From Brachybacterium paraconglomeratum (GTDB lineage Bacteria; Actinomycetota; Actinomycetes; Actinomycetales; Dermabacteraceae), in NCBI RefSeq assembly GCF_003994255.1, contig NZ_ML133857.1, forward strand, positions 1 to 64,000: 64,000 nt of DNA, written 5' to 3'. Shown here one piece after another: positions 13,028 to 47,049 of the stretch. The notes beneath the pieces were generated by a model. The model had not been told where the DNA came from. It was given only the letters and a program-made list of their open reading frames with translations, and ran no database searches. Numbering within the stretch: the stretch's first letter is position 1; the number at the start of each line of letters is the position of its first letter. Position numbers and translations under genes: made by a program.

Positions 13028-13170
13028 AGACTAGACACCGCAGGAGACTTGTCGGAAATGCCCGGACAGAAGCGGAGGCGCGGGAAACTCATGGAAACTT
13101 ACCCGACGGTAAAGTCATGGAGAAGTGTCGGAGGTGAAGAATGGTGACCGCCCTCCCTCCCTGTTCGCAC
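13028..13170. promoter_or_regulatory. Leader of the phosphatase gene with GGACA-type direct repeat (site 6)
   Basis: In the minus-strand direction, GGGCA-TTTC-CGACA occupies 13063-13050, about 25-35 nt upstream of the phosphatase start and before TAGTCT. The 9-bp unit spacing is the same as in five other EPS leaders. The rest of this interval is the 3' flank of the MauE-like gene and includes an imperfect dyad ACTTACC/GGTAAAGT near 13098-13115. Confidence 0.45.
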
Positions 13171-14208
13171 TCAGCCGTCGGCCGGCAGTTCCCCGCCTGC
13201 CTGCGCCTCCGCCAACTGCTCCCGGATCTCCTGCACGAACTCGATCACCGCGCTGCCGCCGTTGACGGGGCCGCCGGCGAGCTGGCCGTCGGCCCCCAGC
13301 AGCACCGCGCTCGGCGCGCTCGTGCCGCCGAGCGCGGTGCGGGCGGTGAACTGCAGATCATGCAGGGCGTACCCCGCCACGCGGTCCGTCGTCCGCTCGC
13401 GCAGCTGGTCCAGCGGGCGGGAGAACACGAACCGCACCTGCAGCGTCTGCTCCAGCTCGCCGATCCACTCCTCGGCGTGGTCCAGCACCCGTTCGCACGG
13501 CCCGCAGCCCTCGGTGACGAACACCAGCAGCGCCGCCCGCTGCGCGGTGAGCTGGGTGAGGGTGATCAGGCGGCCGTCGGGCTGCTGCAGCACCGCCGCC
13601 GGGATCGGGGAGCGCTCGTAGTCCAACAGCTCGTCCTCGTCCGCATCGGCCGCCGCAGGGGCGGGAGCGGTCGAGGCGTCGGCATCGGTCTCGGCGACGC
13701 TGCCACCGATCGTGGCGGCCGTCAGCGCGATCGCGATCAGCAGCGCTAGCCCGAGACCGATCAGCCCCATCGGCGCCTGCACCAGGAGAGTGGTCATCGC
13801 CCCGCTCGCCGCCGCGACCACGGCCAGGACGCCCAGCACGCTCAGGAGCACGTTCCGCACCAGCGTCGTGCGGGAGACGGTGGGGGAGGCGAGGGTGCCG
13901 AAGCAGGAGCAGTGCACCTGCTCCTCGAAGGTCAGCGCCCGCGCGATGATCGCCAGGTAGGTGAACATCAGGAGCGCCACCAGCCCTGCGAGAAACACCT
14001 GCAGGGGCGGCACCGGGATCCACAGCGCGAGCGCGAGGATGATCTCCGCGGCCGGGAGCGCCGAGGCGACCGAGGCGTGGAACGCCGGCAGCGGGAGGCG
14101 CAGCGAGCGCATCGCGTCCTTCGTCCCCTCGCGTGCCCCGAGCTTCGCGAGCCCGGAGATCAGCAGGGTGATCGACAGCAGGATCGGTGCCGCCAGCAGC
14201 ACAGCCAT
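13171..14208 (-). CDS. MauE/DoxX-like membrane protein with C-terminal thioredoxin-like domain
   Basis: A 345-residue protein. The N-terminal part has four to five helices with LLISGLAKL, HCSCFG (a paired-Cys motif like the MauE CGCFG) and QVHCSC on the extracytoplasmic side. After an Asp/Ala-rich linker (~180-205) comes a thioredoxin-like domain with LLVFVTEGCGPCERVL, a CGPC redox pair. The combination suggests transmembrane disulfide exchange, as in MauE/MauD of methylamine dehydrogenase maturation, but fused in one chain. I start it at ATG 14208 with GAGGAGG upstream, not at the longer ATG 14253. Its substrate is unknown. It is monocistronic here. Confidence 0.75.
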   Translation of the reverse strand: MAVLLAAPILLSITLLISGLAKLGAREGTKDAMRSLRLPLPAFHASVASALPAAEIILALALWIPVPPLQVFLAGLVALLMFTYLAIIARALTFEEQVHCSCFGTLASPTVSRTTLVRNVLLSVLGVLAVVAAASGAMTTLLVQAPMGLIGLGLALLIAIALTAATIGGSVAETDADASTAPAPAAADADEDELLDYERSPIPAAVLQQPDGRLITLTQLTAQRAALLVFVTEGCGPCERVLDHAEEWIGELEQTLQVRFVFSRPLDQLRERTTDRVAGYALHDLQFTARTALGGTSAPSAVLLGADGQLAGGPVNGGSAVIEFVQEIREQLAEAQAGGELPADG

Positions 14209-14346
14209 TCGGGGAGCCTCCTCACGTCGGCCCGGCCTTCGGGACGGCGTCACCCACTATTCTCCGATATCGAGGGCGGTCGGAGCGGGGCCGGACCAGC
14301 CTTTCGCCCACGGCGCATCGCGGCCCGTCGGCCCTACCCTGGAGCC

Positions 14347-15777: not shown

Positions 15778-15960
15778 CTGCCTGGGAAAACGCCCAAAAC
15801 GACTGAACCCGGGCGTAGTGCGTCGTGCGGCGTGACACATCGGTCGAACATAGCCGCGAGACCGTTGCGCCGGCGCGAGGTTGAACCGTAGCTTGGCTAC
15901 CGTTCAGGACTTCCAATGCGCCGGCGAGCATGGGCCGCGACCGCACGCCGTGCTCTAAAG
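15778..15960. other. Intergenic flank of the IS3 insertion
   Basis: Lower-GC spacer between aldehyde dehydrogenase and the IS3-type element. It contains two AAAACG strings 9 bp apart (about 15785-15800) directly after the stop, but no promoter-proximal gene. No coding frame is convincing. Confidence 0.4.
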
Positions 15961-16012
15961 TGAATCGTCCGGGGTCTGTTGGCGGCTTTGATCTCACGGG
16001 AGGATGAGCGTC

Positions 16013-16330: not shown

Positions 16331-17257
16331 CCGTCCAGTTCATCGAACAGTACAGGCAGGAAATCGGCGCCCGGCCGATCTGTCGCACGCTCATTGCAGC
16401 AGGCACCCCGATCGCGCCGAGCACCTCCTACGCCTTCAGGACCCTCCCCCCCCTCGACGCGGGCTATCCGTGACCGGGAGCTACTGGTCCATATCCGGCG
16501 CGTGCATGAGAGGAACTTCGGGGTCTACGCGAAGAAGATCCGCGCTCAGCTGCGCCGGGTAGGCGTCCGGTTTGCACGCTGCATCGTGGAACGGCTGGTG
16601 CGGGAGGAAAGGCTTCGCGGGATCAGGCGAAAGAAGGGTTCGCAGAACGCGCTCCCCGACGATGGCCCGAGCACTCGCCTCTACCTGGTCGAACGTGACT
16701 TCACCGAGAAGGTCGCGAACCAGCTGCGGGTCGCGGACATCACCTGCAGCCGCGCGTTCGCAGGCTGGATCTGTGCTGCGTTGGTCATCGATCTGTTCTC
16801 CCGCCGCGCGGTCGGCTGGCAGCTGTCGAAGTCGCTGCGGACCGCCCTAGCCCTGTACGCGCTAGAGATGGGGCCGTGGAGCCGCGAGTACGCAGGTCGT
16901 GACGTCTTCGGGCTCTCGCACGACAGTGACGAGGGAGTCCATCACGTCGCCACCCGTTACACCCAGCGCCTCGCCGAAGCCGGCGCAGTCGCGTCTGTGG
17001 GATCGACCGGCGACTCCTATGGCTACGCCCTGGCCGAGGTCTTCGACTCGCTGTTGAAGGCCGAGCTGGTCCGCAACTGCGGACCCTGGAGGAGCATCGA
17101 CGAGCTCGAAATCGCGACCGCTGAATACATCGACTGGTTCATCCATCGATGGCTCCACGGCGAGATCGGCATGATCCCGCCCGTCGAACTAGAGGACACC
17201 TACCTTCACTACCAGGCCGTGCCGGCGACCGCTGACGCGGCGCTTGCGAGCCTCTAA
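16321..17257 (+). pseudogene. IS3-family transposase OrfB, frameshifted
   Basis: The first segment reads FIEQYRQEIGARPICRTLIAAGTPIAPSTSY and hits TGA at 16471-16473. The continuation (IRDRELLVHIRRVHERNFGVY) is in another frame, so an indel lies in the C-run at about 16443-16452. The rest follows the rve integrase core to VPATADAALASL. Conserved spots are damaged: the stretch around the first Asp reads RVADITCS, the second SHDSDEG, and the usual YDNALAE is YGYALAE. The catalytic acidic residues survive, but the gene is broken. Confidence 0.75.
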
Positions 17258-17276
17258 CAAAACCGGGGCGATTCAC

Positions 17277-17523: not shown

Positions 17524-18327
17524 GTGCCACGATCCCAAAGTTCTCACTCGACGACTCGACGAAGCGTGATGCGGGGAGCTGCGCGGGCTGCGCCGATTGC
17601 CATTGCCAGCGTCTCGGCACCCGCCCTCGCCGTTTCCCCCACCTGCGCGAGCCAGGACGTGACTCTCAACTGGGGCTTCGCCCAGTATTCAGGGACTCCG
17701 TCGCTGACCTCGTCGTTCACGACCAACGTGACCTTCAATCCTAACCCGCCGAACGGAACTTATCCGAGCCTCAACTCGCCGCTCCGGGCCACGATCGTGC
17801 ACACGTACTTCGGTCAGGCGCGAGGCTCCACCCCGAACGGCACCATCTCGACCTTCAACGTCGGCGGCATCGGTCAGGTCGGCTACTACGTCCGGCAGCA
17901 GACCGGGGCGACGGGAAGTGCGACGCCCAGCGCCAACGACTATCAGACGATCCGATTCACGTTCAGCGAGAGCGTCAGCAACCTGCGCTTCTCCATCACC
18001 GACATCGACCGCGTTTGGACGACTACGACGAAAGACTTCATCGACGGCGTCTCCCTGACCAGCGGCTCGCGGTTCACTGCCACCGTCCCTAGCGGGTCCA
18101 CCGTCACGGGAGCAGGCACCGTTGCGAGCCCGTGGCGGAACAGCACCGACGGGAACAAGAGCGAGGATGAACCTGGCGGACAGATCGACATCGCCTTCAC
18201 AGGGCCGGTCGAGACGTTCACTATCCGCTACGACAACTTGGGGCGACAAGCGATCTCCAGCGGCGTGAATAATGACCAGGCAGTGTTCATCACCGGATTC
18301 CGAGCGAATCGGCCGACTCAGTGCTGA
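17524..18327 (+). CDS. Tat-exported protein of unknown function
   Basis: A 267-residue protein with a twin-arginine signal TTRRSVMRGAARAAPIA (residues 10-26) and ALAVSP cleavage region near 36-40. The mature domain is Thr/Ser-rich and beta-strand-like, with two cysteines, one near the start (SPTCAS) and one as the last residue, which could pair. GTG 17524 is preceded by TGGAGG at good spacing. The signal resembles that of the exported protein at 5880-6638 but the mature parts are not obviously similar. Both flanks are IS3 debris, and base composition is less GC-rich than the neighbours, so this segment may have arrived by transfer. Confidence 0.75.
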   Translation: MPRSQSSHSTTRRSVMRGAARAAPIAIASVSAPALAVSPTCASQDVTLNWGFAQYSGTPSLTSSFTTNVTFNPNPPNGTYPSLNSPLRATIVHTYFGQARGSTPNGTISTFNVGGIGQVGYYVRQQTGATGSATPSANDYQTIRFTFSESVSNLRFSITDIDRVWTTTTKDFIDGVSLTSGSRFTATVPSGSTVTGAGTVASPWRNSTDGNKSEDEPGGQIDIAFTGPVETFTIRYDNLGRQAISSGVNNDQAVFITGFRANRPTQC

Positions 18328-18727: not shown

Positions 18728-19485
18728 TGAGCGAGCGCGCCGCGGACTGGAACACCGTTTCGGTGTCCCTGCGGGCCCTGAAGCTCGCCCGCCAGCCCTA
18801 CTACCGCTGGCTTAAGCACTAGGTCTCCGAGGCCGAACTGGTCGGGGCCTATCGCGCCAACACTCTGTTCGACGCTCACCTGGATGATCCCGGGTACGGG
18901 TATCGCTTCCTGGCCGACGAGGCCGCCGATGCCGGCGAGGTGATGTGCGAGCGGACTGCGTGGCGGATCTGTCGAGTCAGCCGGTGGTGGTCCGTCTTCG
19001 GGAAGAAGCGCGGCAAGAACGGAAGACAACCAGGACCGCCCGTCCACGAGGACCTGGTCAAGCGTGACTTCTCCGCCGATGACGTGAACGAGCTGTGACT
19101 GACCGGCGCTCCCCCGCTGCGCGCTCGGCGCATGATCGCATCGCGAGGTGCCCCCTCCGAACACTGGACTGACGAGGGAAAGCTCTACCTCTGCGGGATC
19201 GAGGATGTGTTCTCCGGACGGATCGTGGGCCACTCGATCAGCGACCGGATGAAGGCCCGCCTCGCAGTGAACGGGCTGAACAATGCGGTATCCCGGCGTC
19301 GTGACGCTGCCGATTGCGTCGTGTACTCGAACCGAGGATCCCGGTTTCGGTCACGCAAACTCGCGCAGACGCTGAACCGTCGTCACCTTATCGAGTCGAT
19401 GGGGATAGCCGGTGCCGCTGGGGACAACGCCGCGATGGAGTCCTTCATCGCCCTGCTGCAGAAGAACGTCCTGGACCGGTACGAA
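18727..19485 (+). pseudogene. IS3-family orfB remnant, multiple lesions and truncated
   Basis: The frame starts as VSERAADWNTVSVSLRALKLARQPYYRW, is stopped by TAG at 18820-18822, continues (YRANTLFDAHLDDPGYGYRFLADEAADAG), then NELW is followed by TGA at 19096-19098 and an insertion of about 50 nt. It resumes with DEGKLYLCGIEDVFSGRIVGHSISDRMKA and stops matching after QKNVLDR. The DDE core is incomplete. Confidence 0.7.
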
Positions 19486-19789
19486 GGTTCTGGCACGCGG
19501 CGGACAGCCCGGTTCGAACAGCGGTCCGGGCCTCGGCGGGGCGCAAGGCAACGTCGCCCTCGCGGTCGGCACGGATTCCGAGACGACGCAGATCAGGCGG
19601 GCACTGGACGGAGCTGCGGGCACTGGCGTCGGCACGGGGACCGGCGGCGGTGGCATCAGAGGCTGGGGCGGCGGAGGCGGTGGCAGCTACATCAGCACCG
19701 CGGTCGCAGGGAGCACGACCGGGCACGCCAGGAACAGCTCTGCTGTCGAGGGCCAGCGCAACGCCGGCTCGATCACCATCACCTACTGA
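19486..19789 (+). pseudogene. 3' remnant of a Gly-rich (probably exported) protein gene
   Basis: After the IS3 remnant breaks off, an open frame encodes a Gly/Ser/Thr-rich stretch (GTGVGTGTGGGGIRGWGGGGG near the middle) ending GQRNAGSITITY and a TGA at 19787-19789. It has no start codon or signal of its own and looks like the C-terminus of a surface or secreted protein whose 5' part was removed by the IS insertion or deletion. The family is not identifiable. Confidence 0.5.
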
Positions 19790-20034
19790 CCGCGCGGGCC
19801 CGGCGTGTTGCCACCCGCGTCGCCACGGGCATCGGTCGCCCGCCCGACCCCCGTCGGCCGCGCGGACGACCCCACTGCGACGAACGTCGCCGTTCCCTCC
19901 TCCCTGCGGCCATGATCGGGCCTGACCAGCACGATCGGTGATGCGCAGCGAGGCTCGCGGGTCTACCGTCGGACCATGGCCCGCACGGGTCGACCGACCC
20001 TTCCCCGTGAGCAGAACCGCTCGAGGAGTACCCC

Positions 20035-21399: not shown

Positions 21400-21414
21400 C
21401 CCGCACTTCCCGCA

Positions 21415-27280: not shown

Positions 27281-27471
27281 GCTATGGTGTGTCCGAAATG
27301 GGCGAAATGCCCGGAGGGTAGTGACAGCGGGGCGCACGCGAGACGACGCCCCGGGATGGGGGCCTCGGCCGTGTCTTCCGCCAGCGACACCAGGAACGAC
27401 GAGGGGATGGCCGTGCTGCCGCGCCCGGGCGTCACCGCCCGCGCAGCCGCCCGCCACGAGGGGGAGGCTCG
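27281..27471 (+). promoter_or_regulatory. EPS promoter with three-unit direct repeat (site 1)
   Basis: TATGGT (27283-27288) is a plausible -10. Directly after it, 27290-27312 reads TGTCC-GAAA-TGGGC followed by GAAA-TGCCC, three 5-mers at an exact 9-bp period; on the opposite strand this is GGGCA-TTTC-GCCCA then TTTC-GGACA. The position over the probable transcription start suggests an operator. The start codon of the FemAB-like gene is about 160 nt further on, leaving a long leader without a recognised structure. Confidence 0.5.
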
Positions 27472-28569
27472 ATGAACGGCGAGGGGAGGGTCCTCGACCC
27501 GGCCGACCGGGACGACCTCGCGACCTGGCGCCGGCTGTGGGAGGAGAGCACGCACCAGCTCCCCTTCGCGCACCCCGGCGTCGCCGGCCCCCTGGGGGAG
27601 GGCGCGGGTCGCCTGCTGGCGGTGACGATGCAGTGGCAGGACTCCTCGGTCCTCTACCCGCTGATCCTGCGCGATGCACCGGGCGGCCTCCGCGACGTCG
27701 TCTCCCCCTACGGCTACGGCGGCCCGCTCGTCAGCGGAGACGCCCCGGTCGACGAGCTCGCCGCGCAGTTCTGGGCCTACTTCGAGGACTGGGCGCGCGA
27801 ACAGCGGGTGGTCAGCGAGTTCGCGCGCCTGTCGCTCTTCGACGACGTCCTGCCGCACCCCGGGCGCCTCCGGGGGCGGAACCCGAACCTCGTGCGCGAG
27901 ATCGAGCCCGACCGCGAGGCGCTGTGGGCCGCGAGCTCCTCGAAGGTCCGCCAGAACGCCCGTCGGGCGCTCCGGGCCGACCTCACGGTGCGCTTCGTGG
28001 AGGACGCCTCGATGATCGAGGACTTCCACTCCGTCTACACCGGGACGATGGAGCGCCTGGACAGCGCCTCCTGGTACCGCTTCGACGTCCCCTTCTTCTC
28101 CGCGCTCCACGACGGGGTGCCGGATCGGCTGCTCTACGTCGCCGCCGAGCGCGATGGACGCCCGATCTCCATCGACCTCATGCTGCTGGGCAGGGACACC
28201 GCCTACTACTTCCTCGGCGGCACGGAGATGGAGGCCTCCCGGGACCGGCCCAACGACCTGGTCAAGATGAGCGTCATGGAATGGCTCTCCGACCACGGCT
28301 ATCGCTGGTACGTCCTCGGCGGAGGGCTGACCTCCGGCGACGGGCTCGAGAGGTACAAGCGCGGCTTCGCCCCGAAGGGCGAGCGGATGTTCCGCACCGC
28401 GGAGCGGGTCCTGGACGCCCGCCTCTACGACCGACTCGTCGCAGAGCGCCGCGCCGAGGCGGCCGACGCCCGGCGCGCCTTCGACGAGGAGTCCGCCTTC
28501 TTCCCCCTCTACCGGGCACCGCTGGGGGAGCCGCTCGACCTCCTCGAGGCGGCCGGCGCGACCTCCTGA
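27472..28569 (+). CDS. FemAB/BioF2-type GNAT-fold transferase (1 of 4)
   Basis: A 365-residue soluble protein with the tandem-GNAT architecture of the FemAB/'BioF2-like acetyltransferase' superfamily: SPYGYGGPLVSG near 80, SKVRQNARRALRADL near 160, and the C-terminal signature DGLERYKRGFAPKGERMFRT. Family members move an amino acid from aminoacyl-tRNA onto lipid II peptides, or acyl groups onto sugars and peptides. It closely parallels the protein at 33092-34321 (shared YGGPL, NA/RRxxRKAL and xxYKRGFxxxG motifs). In this locus a role in decorating the polysaccharide is as likely as a wall cross-bridge role. ATG 27472 has GGGGGAGG upstream. Confidence 0.7.
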   Translation: MNGEGRVLDPADRDDLATWRRLWEESTHQLPFAHPGVAGPLGEGAGRLLAVTMQWQDSSVLYPLILRDAPGGLRDVVSPYGYGGPLVSGDAPVDELAAQFWAYFEDWAREQRVVSEFARLSLFDDVLPHPGRLRGRNPNLVREIEPDREALWAASSSKVRQNARRALRADLTVRFVEDASMIEDFHSVYTGTMERLDSASWYRFDVPFFSALHDGVPDRLLYVAAERDGRPISIDLMLLGRDTAYYFLGGTEMEASRDRPNDLVKMSVMEWLSDHGYRWYVLGGGLTSGDGLERYKRGFAPKGERMFRTAERVLDARLYDRLVAERRAEAADARRAFDEESAFFPLYRAPLGEPLDLLEAAGATS

Positions 28570-28726: not shown

Positions 28727-28815
28727 TATGGTGCGAATCGTCTTAAGGCGGGCAAAACGGACATTCGCGACTCTGTCGCGGGGCCGCGGTCCGCAACGCC
28801 GATCGAGGGGGACCC
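28727..28815 (+). promoter_or_regulatory. EPS operon promoter with direct repeat (site 2)
   Basis: TATGGT at 28727-28732 is a candidate -10. GGGCA-AAAC-GGACA lies at 28750-28763, and a third, weaker unit (TTCG-CGACT) continues to 28772. The arrangement, a TATGGT followed by GGACA-type repeats, parallels site 1, although here the repeats are in the opposite orientation. The start codon GTG 28816 follows about 45 nt later. Confidence 0.5.
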
Positions 28816-30786
28816 GTGTCCATCATCTCTCTGCACTCCGTCCTGCGTGCTTCGTCGACCCGCCGACGCGGCGCCGTCGGCGAGGGCGAGCTCTCCGCCG
28901 AAGCGGCGCAGGGCTCGCTCCACGGCCGCGACCTCCTCCTCGCACCGCCGCTGCTCATCGGCGTGGACGCGGTGATGTGGTTCGTCGGCCTGTGGGCCGC
29001 CTCCGCCCTGCGGCTGGAGACTCTCTCCTTCTCCTTCGGCCTCTCCCTCGACGGGACCGGCACGCCGGTGCTCGGCCTGCTCGTGCTCACCGCGATCGCC
29101 GTGACCGTCTACACGCTCCTCGCCCGCGCCGTGCGCCTGCACCAGGGCCGCCACCTCGTGGGCAGCTTCGACGAGATGGCGCCGCTGGCCGGAGTCGTGC
29201 TCGCCACCGCGTTCGTGATCACCGCCGCCAACGCGCTGTGGCCGGCGCAGCTGCTGCCGAGGACCGCCACGGTCATCGCCGCGCCGCTGGTGATCCTCGC
29301 CGTCGCGGCCGCGCGCTACCTGGTGCGCCTGGCCGAGCTGCGCGCCCTGCGCACCCGGCGCGAGACCGAGCCCTCCCGCGCGCTGATCGTCGGCGCCGGC
29401 GACGTCGGCCGCGCACTGGCCGACTCGATGATGCGCGACCCCTCGTCGACGTGGGAGCCCGTCGGCTTCCTCGACGACGACCCGCGCAAGCGCCACCTGC
29501 GCCACGGCGGCGTGAGCGTCGCAGGCACCACCGACCAGCTCCGCCCCGCCCTCGAGCGCACCGGCGCGGACGTCCTGGTCATCGCTACCACCCACATCTC
29601 CGCCGAGACGATCGGCACCCTCACCGCCGCCGCCACCGAGCTCGAGCTGCCGGTGAGGATCGTCCCGCCGCTCGGCGAGATGATCGACGGGGTCCACCAC
29701 GCCGACCTGCGCGAGATCCAGCCCGCCGACCTCCTCGGCCGCCGCCCCGTCACCACCGACCTCTCCACCATCTCCGAGATGCTGCACGGGAAGACCGTGC
29801 TGGTCACCGGGGCCGGCGGCTCCATCGGCTCCGAGCTGTGCCGCCAGATCGCCGACTTCGACCCCGCCGAGCTGGTGATGCTCGACCGCGACGAGTCGGC
29901 CCTGCACGCGCTGCTGCTGAGCATGAGCGGCACCGCCGACCTCGGCGACGACAACATGGAGCTCGCCGACATCCGCGACGCCGAGCGCCTCGACGCCGTG
30001 TTCGGCCGCCACAAGCCCGACGTCGTCTTCCACGCCGCCGCGCTCAAGCACGTCAACATGCTCGAGAAGTCGCCCGACGAGGCCTTCAAGACCAACGTGC
30101 TCGGCACCCACAACGTGCTCGAGGCCGCACACCGCCACGGCGTGGAGCACTTCGTCAACATCTCCACCGACAAGGCGGCCGACCCGCACAACGTGCTCGG
30201 CTACTCCAAGCGCATCGCCGAGGGGCTCACCGCCCACAAGGGCCGCACCGCCGGCCACGGCACCTGGCTCAGCGTCCGCTTCGGCAACGTGCTCGCCACC
30301 CGCGGCTCCGTGATCCACACCTTCATCGCCCAGATCGAGCGCGGCGGCCCCGTCACCGTCACCGATCCCGATGTCACCCGCTACTTCATGACGGTCTCCG
30401 AGGCGGTGCAGCTGGTCCTCCAGGCCGCGGTCGTGGGGGAGAGCGGCAAGGCCCTCGTGCTCGACATGGGAGAGCCCGTCCCGATCGTGCAGCTCGCCCA
30501 GCAGCTCATCGACGCCTCCCGCAAGGACGTGGAGATCGCCTTCACGGGCCTGCGCCCCGGCGAGAAGCTCCACGAGGACCTCTTCGCCCCCGGCGAGGAC
30601 TCCGTGGTGACCTCCCACACGCTGATCCGCGGGGTGCCGGTCGTCCCGGTCGCCTCCGACGAGCTGCCCGACCTCCGCTCGCTGCACAGCGACGCGCAGG
30701 TCCTCGACGTCCTGACCACCGTGTGCGAGGCGATGGAGGCCACCCGGCCCGCCGCCGCCCGCGCCCCGATCGCAGTGGGGTTCTGA
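28816..30786 (+). CDS. Membrane-bound NDP-sugar 4,6-dehydratase (CapD/WbpM/PglF-type)
   Basis: A 656-residue protein: about four N-terminal membrane helices (45-170), a first Rossmann domain (ALIVGAGDVGRAL near 195) and a C-terminal short-chain-dehydrogenase domain with VLVTGAGGSIGSE near 328-338, STDKAADPHNVLGYSKRIAE near 455 and RFGNVLATRGSVI. Such enzymes convert UDP-GlcNAc to the UDP-4-keto-6-deoxy sugar. With the adjacent aminotransferase and phosphoglycosyltransferase it fits a bacillosamine/4-amino-4,6-dideoxy-sugar route. GTG 28816 has GAGGGGG upstream and is the first gene of the operon. Confidence 0.9.
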   Translation: MSIISLHSVLRASSTRRRGAVGEGELSAEAAQGSLHGRDLLLAPPLLIGVDAVMWFVGLWAASALRLETLSFSFGLSLDGTGTPVLGLLVLTAIAVTVYTLLARAVRLHQGRHLVGSFDEMAPLAGVVLATAFVITAANALWPAQLLPRTATVIAAPLVILAVAAARYLVRLAELRALRTRRETEPSRALIVGAGDVGRALADSMMRDPSSTWEPVGFLDDDPRKRHLRHGGVSVAGTTDQLRPALERTGADVLVIATTHISAETIGTLTAAATELELPVRIVPPLGEMIDGVHHADLREIQPADLLGRRPVTTDLSTISEMLHGKTVLVTGAGGSIGSELCRQIADFDPAELVMLDRDESALHALLLSMSGTADLGDDNMELADIRDAERLDAVFGRHKPDVVFHAAALKHVNMLEKSPDEAFKTNVLGTHNVLEAAHRHGVEHFVNISTDKAADPHNVLGYSKRIAEGLTAHKGRTAGHGTWLSVRFGNVLATRGSVIHTFIAQIERGGPVTVTDPDVTRYFMTVSEAVQLVLQAAVVGESGKALVLDMGEPVPIVQLAQQLIDASRKDVEIAFTGLRPGEKLHEDLFAPGEDSVVTSHTLIRGVPVVPVASDELPDLRSLHSDAQVLDVLTTVCEAMEATRPAAARAPIAVGF

Positions 30787-36799: not shown

Positions 36800-36915
36800 G
36801 CGCCATCACCTAGAGTAGGATCCACCCCAATGGGACAAAACGGACATCGCGGCACGCGGTGCCGAGGCGGTCGCCCTGCGCCCCGCCGGCGTCCCTCGTG
36901 ACAAGGAGGCCCGTC
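36800..36915 (+). promoter_or_regulatory. EPS promoter with exact GGACA direct repeat (site 3)
   Basis: TAGAGT/TAGGAT at 36811-36821 are candidate -10 boxes. GGACA-AAAC-GGACA occupies 36833-36846, the cleanest copy of the repeat, about 70 nt before the start codon. AAGGAGG at 36903-36909 is the ribosome site of the next gene. Confidence 0.5.
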
Positions 36916-38034
36916 GTGACGGGAAGTGCAGATCTCGGAACCGCCGCGGCTCCCGAGCGGCGTGCGGACGTCGCAGCGCCCGTCGTCGGGCTGCTGACGT
37001 CCATCGGGGGGACGCTCGACGCCTTCTTCCTCGAGATCACCGAGCGGTGGCGCGAGCAGGGAGCCGTGGTCGAGAGCGCCGCCGGGTCCCTCGCCGAGAC
37101 CTTCGCGGAGGCGACGGTCCTGCCCTCGATCACCCGCAGGCCCTCCCCGCGCAACTGGCGCGCCCGGGCGGAGCTGCGCGAGTGGGTGCGCGGCAGGGGC
37201 ATCGACGTGGTCATCACCAACACCGCGACCGCCTCCATGCTCGTGCGCGCCGCCGGGGTGGGCGTGCCGGTCGTCTACTTCTGCCACGGCCTGCACTGGA
37301 ACGGCGACCGCCTCGCCGACCTGCCCTTCCGAGCGATCGAGCGCGCGCTCGTGCACCGCACCGACGGGATCGTCTGCATCAACTCCGCCGACCAGGACTG
37401 GTTCGACCGGCACGCGACCCGCATCCCGCGCCTGCGCCTCCTGGGCGGCGTCGGCCTGGACACCGAGCGCTTCGTGCGCCGTGCCCCGATGCCCTGGCGC
37501 GAGGGGGAGGAGCCGCTTCGCCTGGTGTGGTGCGGGGAGTTCTCGGAGCGGAAGAACCCCGCCGCCGCCGTCCGGCTCGCGCACGTGCTGCGCGACCGCG
37601 GCGTGGACGTCGTCCTGGACATGCTCGGCGAGGGCGAGCTCTTCGACGACCCGAGCTCCCGCAGCGACGTCGAGGGGCTCGTGATCCGCCACGGCGTCGC
37701 CGACCCGGTCCCGCACTTCGAGCGCTCCCACGTGCTCGTGCAGACCTCCCGCTGGGAGGGCCTGCCGCGCGTGGGCCTCGAGGCGATCGCGATCGGCCTG
37801 CCCGTCGTCGGCTTCGACGTCAAGGGCGTGCGCGACCTGCCCGCCGTGCAGCTCGCCCCCGAGGACGACGTCGAGGCGCTCGCCGACCGCGTGCTCGGCG
37901 CCGCCCGCGGCGAGGGCCCCGCCCTGCCGGAGGCGTCCACCCTCTCCTACGTCCATGCCGCGGACACCCTGCTGGAGTTCGCGCGCTCGACGATCAGCGG
38001 CGAGTACCCGCACGGGACGAGGTACGCGCTGTGA
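36916..38034 (+). CDS. GT4-family glycosyltransferase
   Basis: A 372-residue GT-B enzyme. The N-terminal domain has GLLTSIGGTLDAFFLEI and VVYFCHGLHWNG. The C-terminal donor domain has PLRLVWCGEFSERKNPAAAVRLA and SRWEGLPRVGLEAIAIGLPVVGFDVKGVRD, the EX7E-type motif of GT4 retaining transferases. It presumably adds one sugar to the lipid-linked repeat unit. I use GTG 36916, which has a perfect AAGGAGG at 6 nt, rather than the in-frame start at 36859. It is followed after 55 nt by the polymerase gene in the same unit. Confidence 0.88.
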   Translation: MTGSADLGTAAAPERRADVAAPVVGLLTSIGGTLDAFFLEITERWREQGAVVESAAGSLAETFAEATVLPSITRRPSPRNWRARAELREWVRGRGIDVVITNTATASMLVRAAGVGVPVVYFCHGLHWNGDRLADLPFRAIERALVHRTDGIVCINSADQDWFDRHATRIPRLRLLGGVGLDTERFVRRAPMPWREGEEPLRLVWCGEFSERKNPAAAVRLAHVLRDRGVDVVLDMLGEGELFDDPSSRSDVEGLVIRHGVADPVPHFERSHVLVQTSRWEGLPRVGLEAIAIGLPVVGFDVKGVRDLPAVQLAPEDDVEALADRVLGAARGEGPALPEASTLSYVHAADTLLEFARSTISGEYPHGTRYAL

Positions 38035-38089
38035 GCCATCCGCCCGCCGCACGGGGAGCCGCGGGCCTCGGGAACGGGGGAGGGACCCG

Positions 38090-39382
38090 ATGACGCCGTA
38101 CTTCATCCTGCTCGTGGTCGTGACGGCGCTCGCCGCGCTCAGCTTCCGGGTCGCCCTGAAGAACCCGCGCGAGACGCCCTCGACGGAGGCGGCCGACGCC
38201 CCGGCCCGGACGGGCGGCATGAGGACCCCCGGCATGAGGACAGCCGGCGCGAGGGCGACGGGGACGAAGAGCCTCTCCGCGTCCCGCTACCGTCCCCGCT
38301 CCGGCGGCCTCGGCCTTGCGACGAGGACGGCGAGCTCGACCAGGTACCGCGCCCGGTCCGCCGGCGCGATCGTCACCGAGGAGGAGACCGCCCGGGCCGC
38401 ACGGCGATGGACGGTCTTCGACGCCGCGGCCGTCACCGTGCTCATCGCGTTCTCCGGGCTCCGCTACGACGTGGGCACCGACTACCCGACCTACGAGCTG
38501 GTCTTCAACAGCATGAACCCTGACGACTGGGCGAGCGACTTCGCCGAGTCCACGCAGGAGGTCGGGTACACGCTCCTGATGCTGGTGATCAAGACGTTCA
38601 CGGAGGACCCGAAGGCGCTGTTCTGGGTCGCGGCGGTCCTGACCGTGCTGCCCGTCTATCTCGGGATCAAGCGGCTGTCCATGGATCCGGGCTTCGCCGT
38701 CGCGCTCTTCGTCGCCTTCGAGTACACCTCGTCCTTCAACGCGCTGCGCCAGTACATCGCCGTCGCGCTCCTCTTCCTCGCCTGGACCTACCTGGGCAGG
38801 AAGAACGTCGTGTTCTGGGTGCTCGCGATCATCGCCCTCAGCTTCCACATGACGGCGATCCTCGCGATCGTCGTGATGCTGGTGGTGCGCCGCTGGCGGC
38901 CCACCGTCCAGACCACGCTGTTCTTCCTCGGAGGCGCGCTGGTGGCCGCGGCAGGCGTGCGGGCCGCGCCCTTCCTCGTCTCCTTCCTCGAGGTGCTCAA
39001 CCCGCGCTACGGGGACTACCTCGACTCGGGGCAGACGGGCATCGGCTCGTACCTGTCGATCTTCGCCTACCTGGCGCTGATGATCCTGGTCGTGTTCGTC
39101 GGCAGTCGGAAGGCGCCGCTGACCCGCCTGGAGTCGCAGCTCGCCGTGCTGGTCCTCGCCGGCGTGGCCCTGATGATCGTGGGGACCCAGGCGATCGTGC
39201 TCAGCCGACTGTCGGGCTACTTCGGGATCTTCGCGATCCTGCTCGTGCCCAACCGCATCGCGAAGATGCAGGACCGCACGCTGATCACCCTGCTGGTCCT
39301 CCTGGCCGCCGTCGCCTACTACGCCCTGGGTGTCCAGAACTACGGCGAGGTCATCCCGTACCGCACCTACCTCGGGCAGTGA
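38090..39382 (+). CDS. EpsG/Wzy-like polysaccharide polymerase
   Basis: A 430-residue membrane protein with about ten helices. SGLRYDVGTDYPTYELVF (~125-142) is the EpsG-family signature, and SFNALRQYIAVALLFLAW and LSFHMTAILAI follow as in that family. It should polymerise flipped repeat units outside the membrane. Between the first helix (ending ~25) and the second (~115) there is an unusual 85-residue cytoplasmic insert, rich in Arg/Thr/Ser/Gly with short repeats (GGMRTPGMRTAGARATG). ATG 38090 is preceded by GGGGGAGGG. Confidence 0.82.
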   Translation: MTPYFILLVVVTALAALSFRVALKNPRETPSTEAADAPARTGGMRTPGMRTAGARATGTKSLSASRYRPRSGGLGLATRTASSTRYRARSAGAIVTEEETARAARRWTVFDAAAVTVLIAFSGLRYDVGTDYPTYELVFNSMNPDDWASDFAESTQEVGYTLLMLVIKTFTEDPKALFWVAAVLTVLPVYLGIKRLSMDPGFAVALFVAFEYTSSFNALRQYIAVALLFLAWTYLGRKNVVFWVLAIIALSFHMTAILAIVVMLVVRRWRPTVQTTLFFLGGALVAAAGVRAAPFLVSFLEVLNPRYGDYLDSGQTGIGSYLSIFAYLALMILVVFVGSRKAPLTRLESQLAVLVLAGVALMIVGTQAIVLSRLSGYFGIFAILLVPNRIAKMQDRTLITLLVLLAAVAYYALGVQNYGEVIPYRTYLGQ

Positions 39383-39687: not shown

Positions 39688-40263
39688 TCAGCTCGGCAGG
39701 GGCTCCTCGAGGCTTCGACCGATCGCGCGGGCCGAGGTGTCCACCGCGGCGGCGATCATGCCGAAGCTCTTCACGTATCCCGCCGGCGGGCCGCCGTAGG
39801 GATCGGCGATGTCCATCTCCGCCCGGGACGCGTTCGCGAGCCGTCGGAGAGGGGCGCAGGCGCGGACCAGATCGGCGAGCGAGTCGTGGACCTCGTCGTC
39901 GCCGAGCAGCTCGGTGATCCGCGCGAACTCGAGCATCGTGAAGGTGCGGCGCACCGCGCGGGGCGAGAGCGCGGTGACCGAGGCGCGCTGCCTCGTGCTC
40001 ATCGTGAGGATGAGATCAGCGGCCTCGACCGCCTCGAGGGTGAGCTGTGTGCCCCTGCCGCGCAGCTCCTCGCCGGTGGACTCCAGCACCGTGCTGATCG
40101 CCTCCGGGACCGGACGGCGCCCCACCACGGCGTGCGTTCCTGCGCTGCTGACGGCGATGCGCCGAGGAGCAAGGCGATGGCGCAGCAGCCCCTCGCCCAC
40201 GGGGGAGCGGCAGATGTTCCCCGTGCAGACGACGAGGATCGAATCGATCGAATCGGTCGTCAT
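39688..40263 (-). CDS. Low-molecular-weight protein-tyrosine phosphatase (Wzb-like)
   Basis: A 191-residue phosphatase: VVCTGNICRSPVGEGLL gives catalytic Cys13 and Arg19, and MDIADPYGGP near residue 160 is the general-acid Asp loop. It overlaps the stop of the Wzc-like kinase (ATGA), so kinase and phosphatase are made together, the classic Wzb/Wzc pair controlling EPS polymerisation and export. It is a second copy relative to 12458-13027, and the sequences are clearly different. Confidence 0.9.
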   Translation of the reverse strand: MTTDSIDSILVVCTGNICRSPVGEGLLRHRLAPRRIAVSSAGTHAVVGRRPVPEAISTVLESTGEELRGRGTQLTLEAVEAADLILTMSTRQRASVTALSPRAVRRTFTMLEFARITELLGDDEVHDSLADLVRACAPLRRLANASRAEMDIADPYGGPPAGYVKSFGMIAAAVDTSARAIGRSLEEPLPS

Positions 40264-42020
40264 GCGGACCTGGCCCCCTGTCGACCTGCGCCGCCGGAGA
40301 CGGTCAGGGTGGGGCCGTCGGCCGGGACGTCGGCCTCGTGGGTGCCACCGGAGGAGCGTTCGGCGTCGGCCGGCCCGGTGCCGTCGGGGCGCGTGGCCTC
40401 GGGACGGCGCACCGCACGGCGCCGCGGCGCGGCGGGGCGGCCGCCGTGCATGGCGGTCGGGCGTGCGGCCCGGGCGGCCGGCAGGGCCTCCGGACGGTCG
40501 CCGGTGGCCTCCTCGGCCTCCAGCGCCTCCTCGTGCCGGTGCTCGGACGATGCCGACCTCGAGGGTCGGGCGTCCTCGGGCCACGCCTCCGCGGGACGAT
40601 CCTCGGCGGGCACCACGCTCACCGCGGGCTCGGAGGACTCCTCGTCGGGGAGGTAGGTGTAGACGTCGCGGACGTCCCGCGGTGCGTTGTTCACGACCAC
40701 GCCGAGCACTCGGGCGTCGACGGAGTCCATCTTCGCGAGCGCCTCGCCGAGCTGCTGCTTCTTGACCCGGTCACTCTGCGCGACGACCAGCGATCCGTCG
40801 ACGAAGCGGGAGAGCGCCACGGCATCGGTCACGGCGAGCAGGGGAGCGGTGTCGACCACCACGTAGTCGTACGCCTCGGACGCCGCCTCCAGCAGCGAGC
40901 GCATCGCCTCGCTGCCCAGCAGCTCGCTGGGGTTCGGGGGGATGGGGCCCGAGGTGAGGACGTCCAGGCCCGCCGTCTCCAGCGGCTGGGTGACGTCGTC
41001 GAGCTCGACATCGCCGATCAGCACGGTGGTGAGGCCGACGGTCCGCTCGAGGCCGAGCTCCGTGGCGAGGGAGGGACGGCGCAGGTCGGCGTCGACCAGG
41101 AGCACACGATCCCCGGCCTGGGCGAGCACCTGGGCGAGGTTGATCGCAGTGCTCGACTTGCCCTCGCCGGAGAGCGAGGAGGTCACCAGGAGGGTGTTCA
41201 TCCTGTCGGCGGTGAGCATGAAGTGGAGATTGGTGCGCAGCTCGCGATAGGCCTCCGCCTGCACGCTGCTGGGCTTCTGCGCGGCGATCAGCGCGACGTT
41301 CTGCGAGGAGTGCACCGAGGGGATCGATCCGATCACCGGAAGGTCGTACAGGGCCTCGATGTCGGCGGGGCGACGCACCCGGTTGTCCAGGAAGTCTCGC
41401 ACCACGGCCGCCGCCAGCCCGGCGAGCAGCGCGAGCAGCACGCCGAGCGCGAGGTCACGGGGGATGTTCGGCGACGCGGGGGAGCTCGGCGTCGCGGCGG
41501 CGGAGATCACGGTGAGCTCGACGGTCGAGGGGACGGCCTCGAAGCCGTCCTCGGTGGTCCCCGTCGCGGCCGCCTCCTGAGTCGGCGCCTCGAGGGTCGA
41601 GACCTGCGTGCGCAGGCTCTCCGAGGTGGCGTTCGCGATGGCAGAGGCGACCTGCGGGTCCACCGAGGAGGCCGTGATGTCGATGATCAGCGTGTCCTCG
41701 GGGATCCGGGTGCTGATGCGATCGGCGAGCTGGTCGGCGGTGAGATCCAGCCCGAGCTCCTCGATCACCGGGTCGAGCACGATCGGCGTCTTCGCGAGGT
41801 CGGCGTAGGTGATGATCTGCTGGCTGGCGAAGTTCACGCCGCTGCTGCGCTCGGAGACCGAGCCGCCCGCCTCGGTCTGCACGAACACTCGGTTCGTGGC
41901 GGTGTAGGTCGGGGTGCGCGTGAGCGTCAGAGTGCTGACGACCGCCAGCACGATCACGGCCGCGATGGCGGCTGTGCTCCACCGCTCCTTCAGGATCGTC
42001 AGGTACTGCTGCAGCTCCAC
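40260..42020 (-). CDS. Wzz/Wzc-type polysaccharide co-polymerase and tyrosine autokinase (copy 1)
   Basis: A 586-residue membrane protein: Wzz domain with two helices (about 17-37 and 190-210) bracketing an extracellular loop, then a cytoplasmic BY-kinase domain with SLSGEGKSSTAINLA (Walker A, about 280-290), VLLVDADLRRP (Walker A') and YDYVVVDTAP (Walker B). It regulates chain length through autophosphorylation. The 140-residue tail after VYTYLPDEE is Arg/Ala/Pro/Glu-rich and lacks the usual cluster of tyrosines, leaving only the Y-T-Y pair. The start is GTG 42020 with AGGGGA upstream. The phosphatase gene follows with an ATGA overlap. Confidence 0.9.
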   Translation of the reverse strand: MELQQYLTILKERWSTAAIAAVIVLAVVSTLTLTRTPTYTATNRVFVQTEAGGSVSERSSGVNFASQQIITYADLAKTPIVLDPVIEELGLDLTADQLADRISTRIPEDTLIIDITASSVDPQVASAIANATSESLRTQVSTLEAPTQEAAATGTTEDGFEAVPSTVELTVISAAATPSSPASPNIPRDLALGVLLALLAGLAAAVVRDFLDNRVRRPADIEALYDLPVIGSIPSVHSSQNVALIAAQKPSSVQAEAYRELRTNLHFMLTADRMNTLLVTSSLSGEGKSSTAINLAQVLAQAGDRVLLVDADLRRPSLATELGLERTVGLTTVLIGDVELDDVTQPLETAGLDVLTSGPIPPNPSELLGSEAMRSLLEAASEAYDYVVVDTAPLLAVTDAVALSRFVDGSLVVAQSDRVKKQQLGEALAKMDSVDARVLGVVVNNAPRDVRDVYTYLPDEESSEPAVSVVPAEDRPAEAWPEDARPSRSASSEHRHEEALEAEEATGDRPEALPAARAARPTAMHGGRPAAPRRRAVRRPEATRPDGTGPADAERSSGGTHEADVPADGPTLTVSGGAGRQGARSA

Positions 42021-42120: not shown

Positions 42121-42179
42121 CGAATCTACCCCAGAATGCCCCGATATGGGTAGGTTCGTCCGGAATGTCCGATTCAGGA
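42121..42179. promoter_or_regulatory. Promoter region of kinase copy 1 with direct repeat (site 4)
   Basis: On the plus strand CGTCC-GGAA-TGTCC is at 42157-42170, continuing GATT-CAGGA; on the minus strand this is GGACA-TTCC-GGACG. TAGATT (minus strand, 42129-42124) is a possible -10 for the kinase gene, 100 nt upstream of its start. TAGGTT on the plus strand at 42151-42156 directly abuts the repeat, as TATGGT does in site 1, and could give an antisense start. The repeat touches the stop codon of the upstream GT2 gene. Confidence 0.45.
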
Positions 42180-44325: not shown

Positions 44326-45385
44326 GGGCCATCTGCCCCAGGTAGATGCGCTCAGCGTGGCGGATGTACTCCTCCGGGGCCCGCACCGGGGACCTCTCGG
44401 GGGAGAGCGCCGCCTCGAGCGCCTCGGAGAGGTCCGGCGCGTCCACCGGGACGCAGACGGCCGCATCGCCGGAGACGTCCTCGACGAACGCGCGGCACTT
44501 GGCGTGGTGGTCGAGCATCAGGAACCTCCCGCCGGAGAGATAGGCGACGATCGCCCCGTGCAGGCGCTGGCTCAGCACCAGGGAGGCCGAGCCGAGCGCC
44601 GCCAGGGTGCCCTCGAGGCCGATCTCGAGGAAGCTGCTCGTCGTGCACTCGACGCCCTGATCGCGCAGCGCCGCGGCGAGCGCGCGGACCAGCTGCTCGT
44701 CCCCGTTGCGGGGGTGGCCGTTCAGCGCCAGGATCCGCACCGGAGCGGGCAGCCCGCGCAGCCGCATGGCGCGGCGCGCCTGGAGCACCTGCTCGGCGAG
44801 CAGCTCCACGTCGGCGTCGGCGGCCGCGGAGGGGCACACCACCAGCCCGGAGCGCTCGTCGTCGGCCGCCCGGGTGATCAGCGGGCTGAGCGCGGCGAGG
44901 TCCCCGCCCTGCTCGATGCCCGCCGGCGGGCCGGCGACCGGCTCGGGCAGGAGGGGGAGGTCCTCCTGGAGGAGGGTCCAGGAGTCGTCCCGGACCACGA
45001 TCCGCTCGAACTCGCCGAGGTACTGCCTCACGTCCTGCCGCGCCTGCTCGTCGGCGAACGGGCCCACCGAGACGCCGAGCGCCTGCACACGGGCGGGGCG
45101 GAGCCGTCGGCGCAGCGCGTCGACCCCGGACACGTCGGTGAACACGGAGCCGCCGCAGTACGCGAGCACGTCCGCGCGGCGCAGGATCCGCAGGGAGTGT
45201 GCGGCGCGGACGAGCGCGCCCAGGGGGCCCGCGGTCGCATGGCGGCCGAGGTCCCTGCTGGTCAGGGCCAGGATCTCGGAGGAGCCCGGCCACAGCTCCT
45301 CCCGACGCCGACGGACGGTGTCGAGGAACAGCTGGTCACCGAAGTTCCCCCAGCCGAAATAGCCGACGACGGCGATGGTCTTCAC
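44318..45385 (-). CDS. Polysaccharide pyruvyltransferase
   Basis: A 355-residue enzyme of the CsaB/WcaK group that forms ketal-linked pyruvate on a sugar using phosphoenolpyruvate. Motifs: VVGYFGWGNFGDQLFLDT near the N-terminus, YCGGSVFTDVSG, RDDSW, and LSQRLHGAIVAYLSGG with the catalytic His/Arg region. The modification adds negative charge to the polymer and is common for capsules and wall polymers. The gene overlaps the kinase gene stop (4 nt) upstream and the flippase start downstream. Confidence 0.9.
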   Translation of the reverse strand: MKTIAVVGYFGWGNFGDQLFLDTVRRRREELWPGSSEILALTSRDLGRHATAGPLGALVRAAHSLRILRRADVLAYCGGSVFTDVSGVDALRRRLRPARVQALGVSVGPFADEQARQDVRQYLGEFERIVVRDDSWTLLQEDLPLLPEPVAGPPAGIEQGGDLAALSPLITRAADDERSGLVVCPSAAADADVELLAEQVLQARRAMRLRGLPAPVRILALNGHPRNGDEQLVRALAAALRDQGVECTTSSFLEIGLEGTLAALGSASLVLSQRLHGAIVAYLSGGRFLMLDHHAKCRAFVEDVSGDAAVCVPVDAPDLSEALEAALSPERSPVRAPEEYIRHAERIYLGQMAHA

Positions 45386-46869
45386 GCTTCACTCCTTGTG
45401 GTGGAGGCATTCCGGGCGCTCCCGGAGCTCGTGCCCTGCAGGTCGGTCCCCAGCGGGACGGTGCGTCGGCGCCGCCCGGTGCGGGGCCCCGCACCGGCCG
45501 CCACGGCGTGTTCGGGGACGGCGGCGGCCGCCTGCGGGGGCAGCTCGTAGTAGGTCTCCAGGTCGCCGCGCTGGACGCGGTTCAGGACGATCCCCAGAGC
45601 GTCCGCGTCGACGAGCTGAAGCTTCCGCAGGGCCATCGAGAGCTGGACGCTGCGGACCCTGCCGCTGCCGGCGACCAGGAGCGTCCCGGACACCTGCTGG
45701 GCGAGGGTCGTGCTGTCGCTGAGCGCGAGGACGGGCGGGGTGTCGATCAGCACGATGTCGTAGCGGTCCGCGGCGTCGCGCAGCAGCGTCGTCATCCGGA
45801 AGCTGTCCAGGAGCGCGCCGGGGTTCTGCGGGCGGGGGCCGCCGGCGAGGACGGAGAGGCCCTCGAGCGCCGTGGGCTGGACGAGCGCCGTCCAGGCCGC
45901 CCCGCCCCGCAGCGCGGTGCTGAGCCCGTCGCGATGGCCGAGCCCGAGGCCGTGGTCCGTCCACGTGCCGCGCAGGTCCGCATCGATCAGCAGGGTCCGG
46001 TGCCCCTCGCGGGCGAGGGTGGAGGCGAGGTCGAGCGCGGTGCTGGTCGCGCCCTCGCCGTGCACGGCGGAGGTCACCAGCAGGGTGCGCAGCTCGGTGC
46101 CGAGCCCGAGGTGGCGCAGCGTCGTGCGCAGCCCGCGGAGCGCCTCCGCGCGTCGGCCCTGCGGGGCGACGTCCTCCAGCGGCAGGAACGGCGGCTCCCC
46201 GGCGCGGGCCTCGGGGATCGAGGCGAGCAGCGGGCGCTCGGTGAGCGCGGTGAGGTCCTGGGCGTCCCGCACCCGGTCGTCGAAGGTGCCGCGTACGAGC
46301 GCGGCCGCGATCCCGGCCGCGATCGCGGCGAGCAGGGCGAGGCCGAGCAGGAGCGGCAGGTCGGGGCGTGCGGGGTGCTCCGGGGGGAGCGCCGGCGCGA
46401 CGGTCGTCAGGTGGATCGGGGAGGGCCCCGAGGCGGACTCGAGCCCGGACACCTCGGTCCTCAGGCTCGCCGCGACGAGGTTCGCGATGCGCGCCGCCTG
46501 CTCCGGGTCCGTGTCCTCCGCAGAGATGGTGAGCAGGAGGGAGTCCTCGGGGATCTGGACCGTGAGCACGGAGGCGAGCGAGTCCGCGTCGGTCTGCAGA
46601 TCGAGGGACTCGATGACGGGGTCGAGCACGAGCGGGGAGGTGGCGAGATCGGCGTAGGTGGTGATCCGCTGCACCGCGTAGTCGGAGGCCTCCGTGCGGT
46701 CGAACACGTCGCCGGACGCCCCGGTGCGCACGAACACGCTCGAGGAGGCCTGGTAGACAGGGGTCTGGACCCAGATGGCCGCGGCGGCGGCCGCGAGCAC
46801 GAGCAGCGAGGCCAGCAGCGCGGTGCGCCATCTCTCCTGCACGAGCGCGAAGCAGCGCTGAATCGTCAT
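45382..46869 (-). CDS. Wzz/Wzc-type co-polymerase and tyrosine autokinase (copy 2)
   Basis: A 495-residue protein paralogous to copy 1: MTIQRCFALVQERWRTALLASLLVL, a matching extracellular loop (VFVRTGASGDVFDRTEASDYAVQRITTYADLATSPLVLDPVI) and a kinase domain with VTSAVHGEGATSTALDLAS as the Walker A region, TLLIDADLRG and YDIVLIDTPP. In its Walker A the usual Lys position reads HGEGATST, so the essential GEGKS lysine is replaced by Ala. It may therefore be a catalytically weak or dead partner of copy 1. The tail after ETYYELPP is short and holds only one Tyr pair. Confidence 0.85.
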   Translation of the reverse strand: MTIQRCFALVQERWRTALLASLLVLAAAAAAIWVQTPVYQASSSVFVRTGASGDVFDRTEASDYAVQRITTYADLATSPLVLDPVIESLDLQTDADSLASVLTVQIPEDSLLLTISAEDTDPEQAARIANLVAASLRTEVSGLESASGPSPIHLTTVAPALPPEHPARPDLPLLLGLALLAAIAAGIAAALVRGTFDDRVRDAQDLTALTERPLLASIPEARAGEPPFLPLEDVAPQGRRAEALRGLRTTLRHLGLGTELRTLLVTSAVHGEGATSTALDLASTLAREGHRTLLIDADLRGTWTDHGLGLGHRDGLSTALRGGAAWTALVQPTALEGLSVLAGGPRPQNPGALLDSFRMTTLLRDAADRYDIVLIDTPPVLALSDSTTLAQQVSGTLLVAGSGRVRSVQLSMALRKLQLVDADALGIVLNRVQRGDLETYYELPPQAAAAVPEHAVAAGAGPRTGRRRRTVPLGTDLQGTSSGSARNASTTRSEA

Positions 46870-47049
46870 GGGTCTCCCCGCTCCCGGTGCGCGGTCGGGC
46901 GAGGATCCCCCTGGCCCAAACTGCTCAAATCGGACATACTGGTCACGTTCAATCTAGCCCATCCCGCCGTGGATGAGTAGATCGGGCGGACCACTGATGC
47001 AGGAGGGGCTCCTCGAGCCCCGGCATCGCCGAGCCCGAGAGAGGTCACT
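46870..47049. promoter_or_regulatory. Divergent EPS promoter region with direct repeat (site 5)
   Basis: On the plus strand GCTCA-AATC-GGACA lies at 46923-46936 and continues TACT-GGTCA to 46945, three units with 9-bp period. In the minus direction TAGATT (46956-46951) precedes the repeat as a -10 would, about 80 nt from the kinase start. The plus-strand ligase-like gene begins at 47050 after GAGAGG. The repeat could thus control both genes. Confidence 0.5.

Follow-up and report, generated by a model that had tools for sequence, protein, structure and literature searches.

Nine-base-pair direct repeats at exopolysaccharide genes of Brachybacterium paraconglomeratum as candidate BldC operators

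BldC operators and the six repeats of the window

BldC, a MerR-like protein, has been studied mainly in spore-forming relatives of the bacterium considered here, Brachybacterium paraconglomeratum. In the first 64 kb of contig C7 of its 3.78-Mb genome (G000), a stretch of 71.9% GC that we call the window, six leaders carry short direct repeats of 9-bp period, each ahead of a gene of exopolysaccharide (EPS) type. Judging from the sequences, we think it highly probable that these six elements are operators for BldC, and BldC appears to be the most likely regulator.

Streptomyces BldC is both a repressor and an activator (PMC6428758), and bldC is among its own targets (PMC5859096). On the crystallised site 5'-CAATTCGGACAATTCGGACA-3', one protomer occupies each 9 bp in a head-to-tail arrangement (Schumacher et al., PMC5859096). 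The same paper gives a natural 22-mer from whiI (TGTGTCCGAATTGCTCGGATTG), an optimised strand (TGTCCGAATTGTCCGAATTG) and a four-repeat site, and describes the unit as an AT-rich step with a C four bp downstream, AATTXXXX(C) (PMC5859096). A 2013 review counts bldC as one of the two bld genes with the widest distribution, which extends to simple actinobacteria; for the latter it offers only a conjectured role, in entry into stationary phase (PMC4255298).

An earlier note on this DNA had described GGACA-related repeats in six EPS leaders; all the sequences are present exactly as it gave them, the repeat itself is confirmed, and Pfam assignments of the downstream genes agree that each of the six stands ahead of a gene of EPS type. 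Read on the other strand from the one used there, the sites are head-to-tail 9-bp units, TGTCCGWWW-TGYCC. Site 1 (13050..13063, +; TGTCGGAAATGCCC, two units) lies upstream of its likely target, a low-molecular-weight protein phosphatase gene (LMWPc; 12458..13027, -), and site 2 (27290..27312, +; TGTCCGAAA-TGGGCGAAA-TGCCC, three units) upstream of a gene for a FemAB/GNAT-like protein (27472..28569, +), again the likely target. Site 3 (28750..28763, -; TGTCCGTTTTGCCC), which is kept in two relatives, precedes its likely target, a Polysacc_synt_2 nucleotide-sugar dehydratase gene (28816..30786, +). Site 4 (36833..36846, -; TGTCCGTTTTGTCC) precedes a GT4/Wzy unit (36859-39382, +) made up of a GT4 glycosyltransferase gene (36859..38034, +), the likely target, and next to it an EpsG-family gene (37955-39382, +). 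Site 5, the weakest (42157..42170, +; CGTCCGGAATGTCC), is upstream of a Wzz/BY-kinase gene (40260..42020, -) that it likely controls. Site 6 (46914..46945, -; TGACCAGTA-TGTCCGATT-TGAGCAGTT-TGGGC) lies between a second Wzz/BY-kinase gene (45382..46869, -), its likely target, and a divergent Wzy_C family gene (47050..48189, +), a possible second target. The earlier note was right to count three units at site 2 but gave too few at site 6, which has about four.

The Streptomyces operators at whiI and smeA-sffA resemble these elements in their 9-bp head-to-tail repeats and in their variable number of units, which in Brachybacterium runs by eye from two to about five per site. They also share the AT-rich step followed by CGGAC: in the GGACA sense, the core units of most of our sites read WWW-CGGAC, and the core at whiI is nearly identical. 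Scored with a matrix of 33 Brachybacterium sites, the natural whiI site reaches 17.9, a value attained by none of 799,974 reversed positions. What differs is the neighbourhood, since the Brachybacterium sites stand by polysaccharide and envelope genes; the smeA site, too, scores poorly with this matrix.

The motif in the genome, the genus and beyond

A window matrix was built from eight 14-mers of the six sites and scanned over both strands; controls were the reversed motif, reversed matrix, reversed window or reversed positions, and the comparison set comprised 36 genomes of the genus Brachybacterium and 22 from outside it. The eight 14-mers are, self-inclusively, the top eight of the window, all outside called genes, and they rank 7, 7, 15, 5, 3, 9, 12 and 7 when their own site is left out and the other sites are still listed. 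A relatives-only matrix of 27 sites places sites 1 to 6 at ranks 4, 5, 1, 2, 12 and 3 among 127,974 positions, a ranking that is not fully independent because the 27 sites had themselves been picked up with the window matrix. Site 5 is marginal alone, with a score of 11.6 against a reversed-window maximum of 12.4, and is outscored by a match of 13.1 (CGTCCGGTTTGCAC; 16564-16577, +) inside the frame of an insertion sequence (IS) integrase gene. The claim that IS, exporter, threonine and two-component genes lack the repeat stands for the leaders scored, the best of which reaches 4.7, but not for this integrase frame.

Genome-wide (3.78 Mb), the exact motif TGYCCGWWWTGYCC has just two occurrences, each of which falls in the window, and its reversed control has none; allowing up to two mismatches, 170 places compare with 83. 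Nine places have one mismatch, and the four intergenic ones are site 1 and leaders of NlpC/P60, TetR and YhhN genes. Exact matches number 37 in the genus genomes against 4 for the reversed motif, and 7 against 4 outside the genus. The 28 new exact-match loci divide into 17 coding and 11 intergenic (12 and 10 of 22 in the genus, 5 and 1 of 6 outside) according to a rough open reading frame (ORF) caller. Because this caller stretches 5' ends too far, several sites scored as coding are really leaders, for example those of NTP_transferase genes starting MRGIILAG, which we take to be rmlA-like; at least four of the coding genus loci (L079, L083, L088, L093) look like leaders with over-long ORFs, and others are truly coding. 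Over 400 kb of EPS regions from relatives, matches of at least 12.5 number 60 with the window matrix and 3 with the reversed one, a rate biased by the choice of these regions through BY-kinase or motif matches; 26 of the 60 fall in the 49 kb called intergenic and 34 in the 351 kb called coding. A few good matches lie in coding DNA or in unrelated leaders.

Column -1, just outside the search matrix, is A in 25 of the 27 relatives' sites and in three of the six window sites. Extra units occur in the 9-bp register, with z scores of 5.4 at +18, 4.0 at +27 and 3.7 at -9; the 95th percentile of off-register flank scores is exceeded by 11 of 33 sites at +18, 9 at +27, 6 at +36 and 10 at -9.

Sites 3 and 4 are retained in the orthologous leaders of relatives. 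Among named relatives, the nearest one identified with a common EPS locus is Brachybacterium sp. EE-P12, which we take G027 to be; the dehydratase search also returned a distant Nocardioides match, and the EpsG-like protein as query found no named relatives. The site 4 leader of EE-P12 has diverged, yet its longest identical run is the 17-base GGACAAAACGGACATCG; two 7-base runs come next in length, and one of these is the -10-like CTAGAGT. The present genome, EE-P12 and G032 all retain the site 3 leader, and in G032 the frame that follows has only a CoA_binding_3 match and no dehydratase domain. EE-P12 further has a site of score 13.8 about 0.16 kb ahead of a BY-kinase match, rearranged relative to the window and placed inside a frame by the ORF caller.

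Could the pattern have been picked by chance from many short matches? Site 5 falls within the reversed-window range, two-mismatch matches are common in coding DNA, and 12 of the 22 exact-match loci of the genus are called coding. However, the excesses of 37 over 4 in the genus and 60 over 3 in EPS regions, the 17-base block in an otherwise diverged leader and the A at column -1 in relatives' sites all speak against chance, above all for sites 1-4 and 6, and we give this explanation hardly any credence.

A sequence-only model, R1, built from 33 sites, finds four places in this genome at E<=10: sites 3, 4 and 6, followed by the NlpC/P60 leader. Sites 1, 2 and 5 are below its reach although they belong to the training set. 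At E<=1 it gives 52 matches over the genus, spread over 24 of the 36 genomes and including 27 training sites; outside the genus it gives nine in the 22 genomes. Four of the 25 untrained matches lie within 50 kb of a BY-kinase match (binomial P 0.004, assuming a flat 100 kb per 3.7 Mb and with the 50-kb limit set after the matches had been seen). At E<0.1 there are 18 matches in 12 of the 36 genus genomes and none outside. Fourteen of the 18 are training sites; the four untrained ones stand in G024 before an rmlA-like gene, in G018 before a Bac_transf gene, in G027 before an NlpC/P60 gene and in G020 before bldC itself. We do not regard every R1 match as a target: at least three others are in called coding DNA (G005, G001, G026:C11), and those at L173:1502 (G016), L180:1507 (G029) and L181:1501 (G025) were set aside, as they adjoin GAACGAGTGTTCG-like sequence, presumably akin to an SOS box, and are probably unrelated to BldC.

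Taken together, the idea of one EPS regulator acting on direct repeats is supported and right in kind, given the 60 matches against 3, the conservation of sites 3 and 4 and a geometry that fits a known 9-bp binder. To this we would add a name for the regulator, BldC.

The BldC ortholog and competing regulators

A regulator encoded within the EPS cluster was rejected, since a Pfam scan of 40 window proteins showed no DNA-binding regulator except the HTH of the IS integrase; the window also holds a histidine kinase gene (57462-59360). The genome encodes a single BldC ortholog of 75 residues (C1:543298-543522, -), which scores 103.8 bits against the NCBIfam HTH_BldC cut-off of 77 and matches PDB entries 6ama (E 1.2e-21) and 6amk (E 1.1e-20). 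Orthologs were found in 33 of the 36 genus genomes. Among the 30 that were examined, F21, K26, T27, T29, R30, W31, L43, G44, H46, R47 and R48 are identical throughout, which includes the binding residues R30 and H46 and the head-to-tail contacts L43, G44, W31 and F21. Base-contact and wing residues are the same as those of the 68-residue Streptomyces protein, a MerR-like winged helix-turn-helix (wHTH; 6ama, 6amk), whereas K33 is replaced by Q in 29 of 30 orthologs and R22 by H in 23 of 30, and about ten N-terminal residues are added. Positions 16 and 22, a dimer contact in Streptomyces, both vary within the genus (L125-L154): position 22 is H in 23 orthologs and R in 7, while position 16 is Q in seven orthologs, all from other genomes than those with R22, and E in the remaining 23. 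All 11 strong-match genomes with bldC have H22, a link that may merely reflect descent.

As in Streptomyces, bldC may be among its own targets in part of the genus. The G020 site, 128 bp ahead of the bldC ATG, scores 20.1 and was not in the training set. In other bldC leaders, among the 23 of 30 loci that were readable, scores are 13.3 (G016), 11.9 (G025 and G029), 9.3 (G026) and 7.9 (G033), and only 0.2 in the present genome.

The repeats might be bound not by BldC but by a different protein, for instance a response regulator or another small wHTH protein of Xis/MerR type. Six HTH_17 matches exceed the cut-off in this genome, some response regulators bind direct repeats (PMC5859096), and G024 has sites and no detected bldC. 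Xis/RdfS-type recombination directionality factors are likewise oligomeric winged HTH proteins on DNA, but they act in the excision of mobile elements (PMC11963761). However, only one place in the genome exceeds the BldC-model cut-off. Three HTH_17 proteins were scanned with NCBIfam, and the two other than BldC match an excisionase-like model, one of them carrying a Mop domain; a further HTH_17 protein adjoins a frame that by eye resembles a phage integrase. Together with the close match to BldC's own published site and the position of one of the four strong untrained R1 matches at bldC, this makes a different binder unlikely.

Several observations weigh against BldC and should be set beside this evidence. 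With smeA, the second published site, the score is no more than 4.4 (control fraction 1.6e-4), the ortholog has H for R22 and Q for K33 of the Streptomyces protein, and the bldC leader of this genome has no site (0.2). Ten of the 33 genus genomes with bldC have no R1 match at E<=1, and the motif is not enriched outside the genus though 12 of the 22 genomes there have a BldC match. Two of the intergenic one-mismatch sites precede TetR-DUF3107 and YhhN genes, which have no envelope link. Off-register offsets of -8 (z 4.1) and +20 (z 2.6), as well as core-adjacent ones, also pass z 2. Finally, G024 has strong sites and no bldC; the usual neighbour gene is missing too and the assembly is in 520 contigs, so that the absence is possibly an assembly gap. 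G006, G008 and G024 have no BldC over the family cut-off. In G008, bldC is lost and the neighbouring hydrolase gene kept, and there is no R1 match at E<=1, which we count in favour of BldC. Over the genus, R1 matches are present in 23 of 33 genomes with bldC and in one of three without; this comparison was dropped as not informative.

Promoters, neighbouring genes and the predicted regulon

The repeat was said to follow a -10 directly at sites 1, 3 and 5, a statement that needs correction in its details. At site 1, TAGTCT (13028-13033, -; ATG at 13021), read from the sequence and below our hexamer cut-off, is downstream; the promoter would be leaderless, with the repeat at roughly -29 to -42. 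At site 3, the -10-like TATGGT (28727-28732, +) ends 17 nt ahead of the repeat, and at site 5, TAGATT (42123-42128, -) is 28 nt downstream of it. It is at site 2 that the repeat begins almost directly after its -10-like hexamer (TATGGT, 27283-27288). The corresponding hexamers are TAGAGT (36811-36816, +) at site 4 and TAGATT (46951-46956, -) at site 6. A rule that the strong unit always faces away from the -10 was discarded, as it fails at sites 2 and 6. Twelve of 40 site-gene rows have a -10-like hexamer upstream in the GGACA sense, at hexamer-to-core offsets of about -22 (seven), -32 (two), -41 (one), -9 and -7 (one each). Since -22, -32 and -41 are about 9 bp apart, they fit arrays that are filled one unit at a time as far as the promoter. 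In the TGTCC sense, other sites stand upstream of the hexamer, and in many rows none exceeds the cut-off. In S. coelicolor the footprint at whiI spans -50 to -80, whereas many Brachybacterium arrays come shortly after a -10-like hexamer.

Being downstream of such a hexamer, sites 3 and 4, like many in relatives, are probably transcribed, and the repeat could conceivably work at the RNA level, its GGACA units at 9-nt intervals forming a leader element that a protein binds or that is read as a structure. We consider this very improbable, because sites occur in both orientations with respect to the gene and several are upstream of the hexamer (TGTCC-sense sites of G002, G004 and G021; CTP_transf_like leaders L191 and L200). 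If BldC is the binder, its protomers would bind head-to-tail, one per 9-bp unit (TGTCCGWWW), and a filament would start at the strong two-unit core and then extend over weaker adjacent units, so that arrays would sit beside or over EPS operon promoters and could influence the polysaccharide. An array downstream of the -10, as at sites 3 and 4 and in many relatives, would block transcription start or escape, and one over the -35 region or upstream could repress or activate. The sign of regulation is left open because Streptomyces BldC does both; repression by downstream arrays is our guess.

Among the relatives, Pfam places Bac_transf priming transferases after sites in G002, G007, G014, G015, G018, G021 and G024, and rmlA-like NTP_transferase genes in G013, G021 and G024, with one more by sequence only in G002. 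A ManC-like gene follows in G026, where the motif match overlaps the likely start codon. Polysacc_synt_2 genes (G004, G014, G019; G027 by synteny), GT4 genes (G004; G027 by synteny), GT2 genes (G002, G007), Wzy_C beside BY-kinase (G004, G014) and CTP_transf_like genes (G002, G015, G021, G024) also occur. Likely targets would extend beyond EPS to NlpC/P60 proteins with peptidoglycan (PG)-binding domains (this genome, G027) and YkuD L,D-transpeptidases (G015, G027). Other neighbours have no evident place in the envelope: methylenetetrahydrofolate reductase (by CTP_transf_like arrays), a pyridoxal-dependent decarboxylase and an ATP-grasp protein (G020), a solute-binding protein (G028), an ABC ATPase (G024), a mechanosensitive channel (G007) and a helicase (G010). 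A few have no Pfam match at all.

In the present genome, the motif lies in a long NlpC/P60 hydrolase leader (G000:C6:23236-23249; L015:1501-1514), with related repeats near L015:1567-1592, and the gene of the same kind in G027 also has a site (L195:3482). Four-unit 9-bp arrays stand upstream of a small CTP_transf_like gene at L103:12405, L106:5752, L191:5817 and L200:315, with L102:12846 unconfirmed; in L102, L103 and L106 they adjoin methylenetetrahydrofolate reductase (metF). Since the TAGTCT-like hexamers that border these conserved arrays are on the side of the divergent CTP_transf_like gene, this gene, and no longer metF, is taken as their candidate target. Similar proteins with N-termini that by eye look twin-arginine-like are encoded in the window at 5880-6638 (+) and 17524-18327 (+) and at L190:2569-3303 and L198:2689-3549; their genes have strong leader sites in G020 and G018, the window pair has none (best -1.4 and 0.5), and the three proteins scanned, all but 5880-6638, gave no Pfam match. 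At L193:3484-4071 (G026), a site-3-like leader is followed by a frame that by eye starts dehydratase-like and then departs, which suggests a disrupted gene. Within the window, IS-type integrase (rve) genes (16394-17257, +; 19132-19941, +) adjoin EPS genes, and between the DegT and FemAB genes (31954-33095, +), where no plus-strand gene was called, an open frame ending at 33095 may be a gene.

Both the operator type and the regulator type are already known; new would be a BldC regulon that takes in polysaccharide and envelope genes in a simple actinobacterium. In the part of the BldC literature surveyed, we found no report of BldC controlling polysaccharide gene clusters; one Streptomyces paper compared how much of the surface enzyme GlxA bld mutants contain, a bldC mutant among them. 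Naming BldC would place the repeat in a familiar class of operators, with a predicted regulon that is new. The sites provide a concrete candidate regulon, and their arrays, of differing length and on both sides of the -10, form a natural series in which filament length and place could be related to repression or activation. The close match to the known BldC site suggests that in a simple bacterium the outer coat is under the control of this protein. It is even possible, as a tentative proposal that we hold more doubtful than not, that the older actinobacterial role of BldC lay at the cell surface, in matrix polysaccharide, wall hydrolases and surface proteins, and that BldC was later recruited into Streptomyces sporulation, while in the H22 clade of Brachybacterium its operators would have grown strong and spread through rearranging EPS loci.

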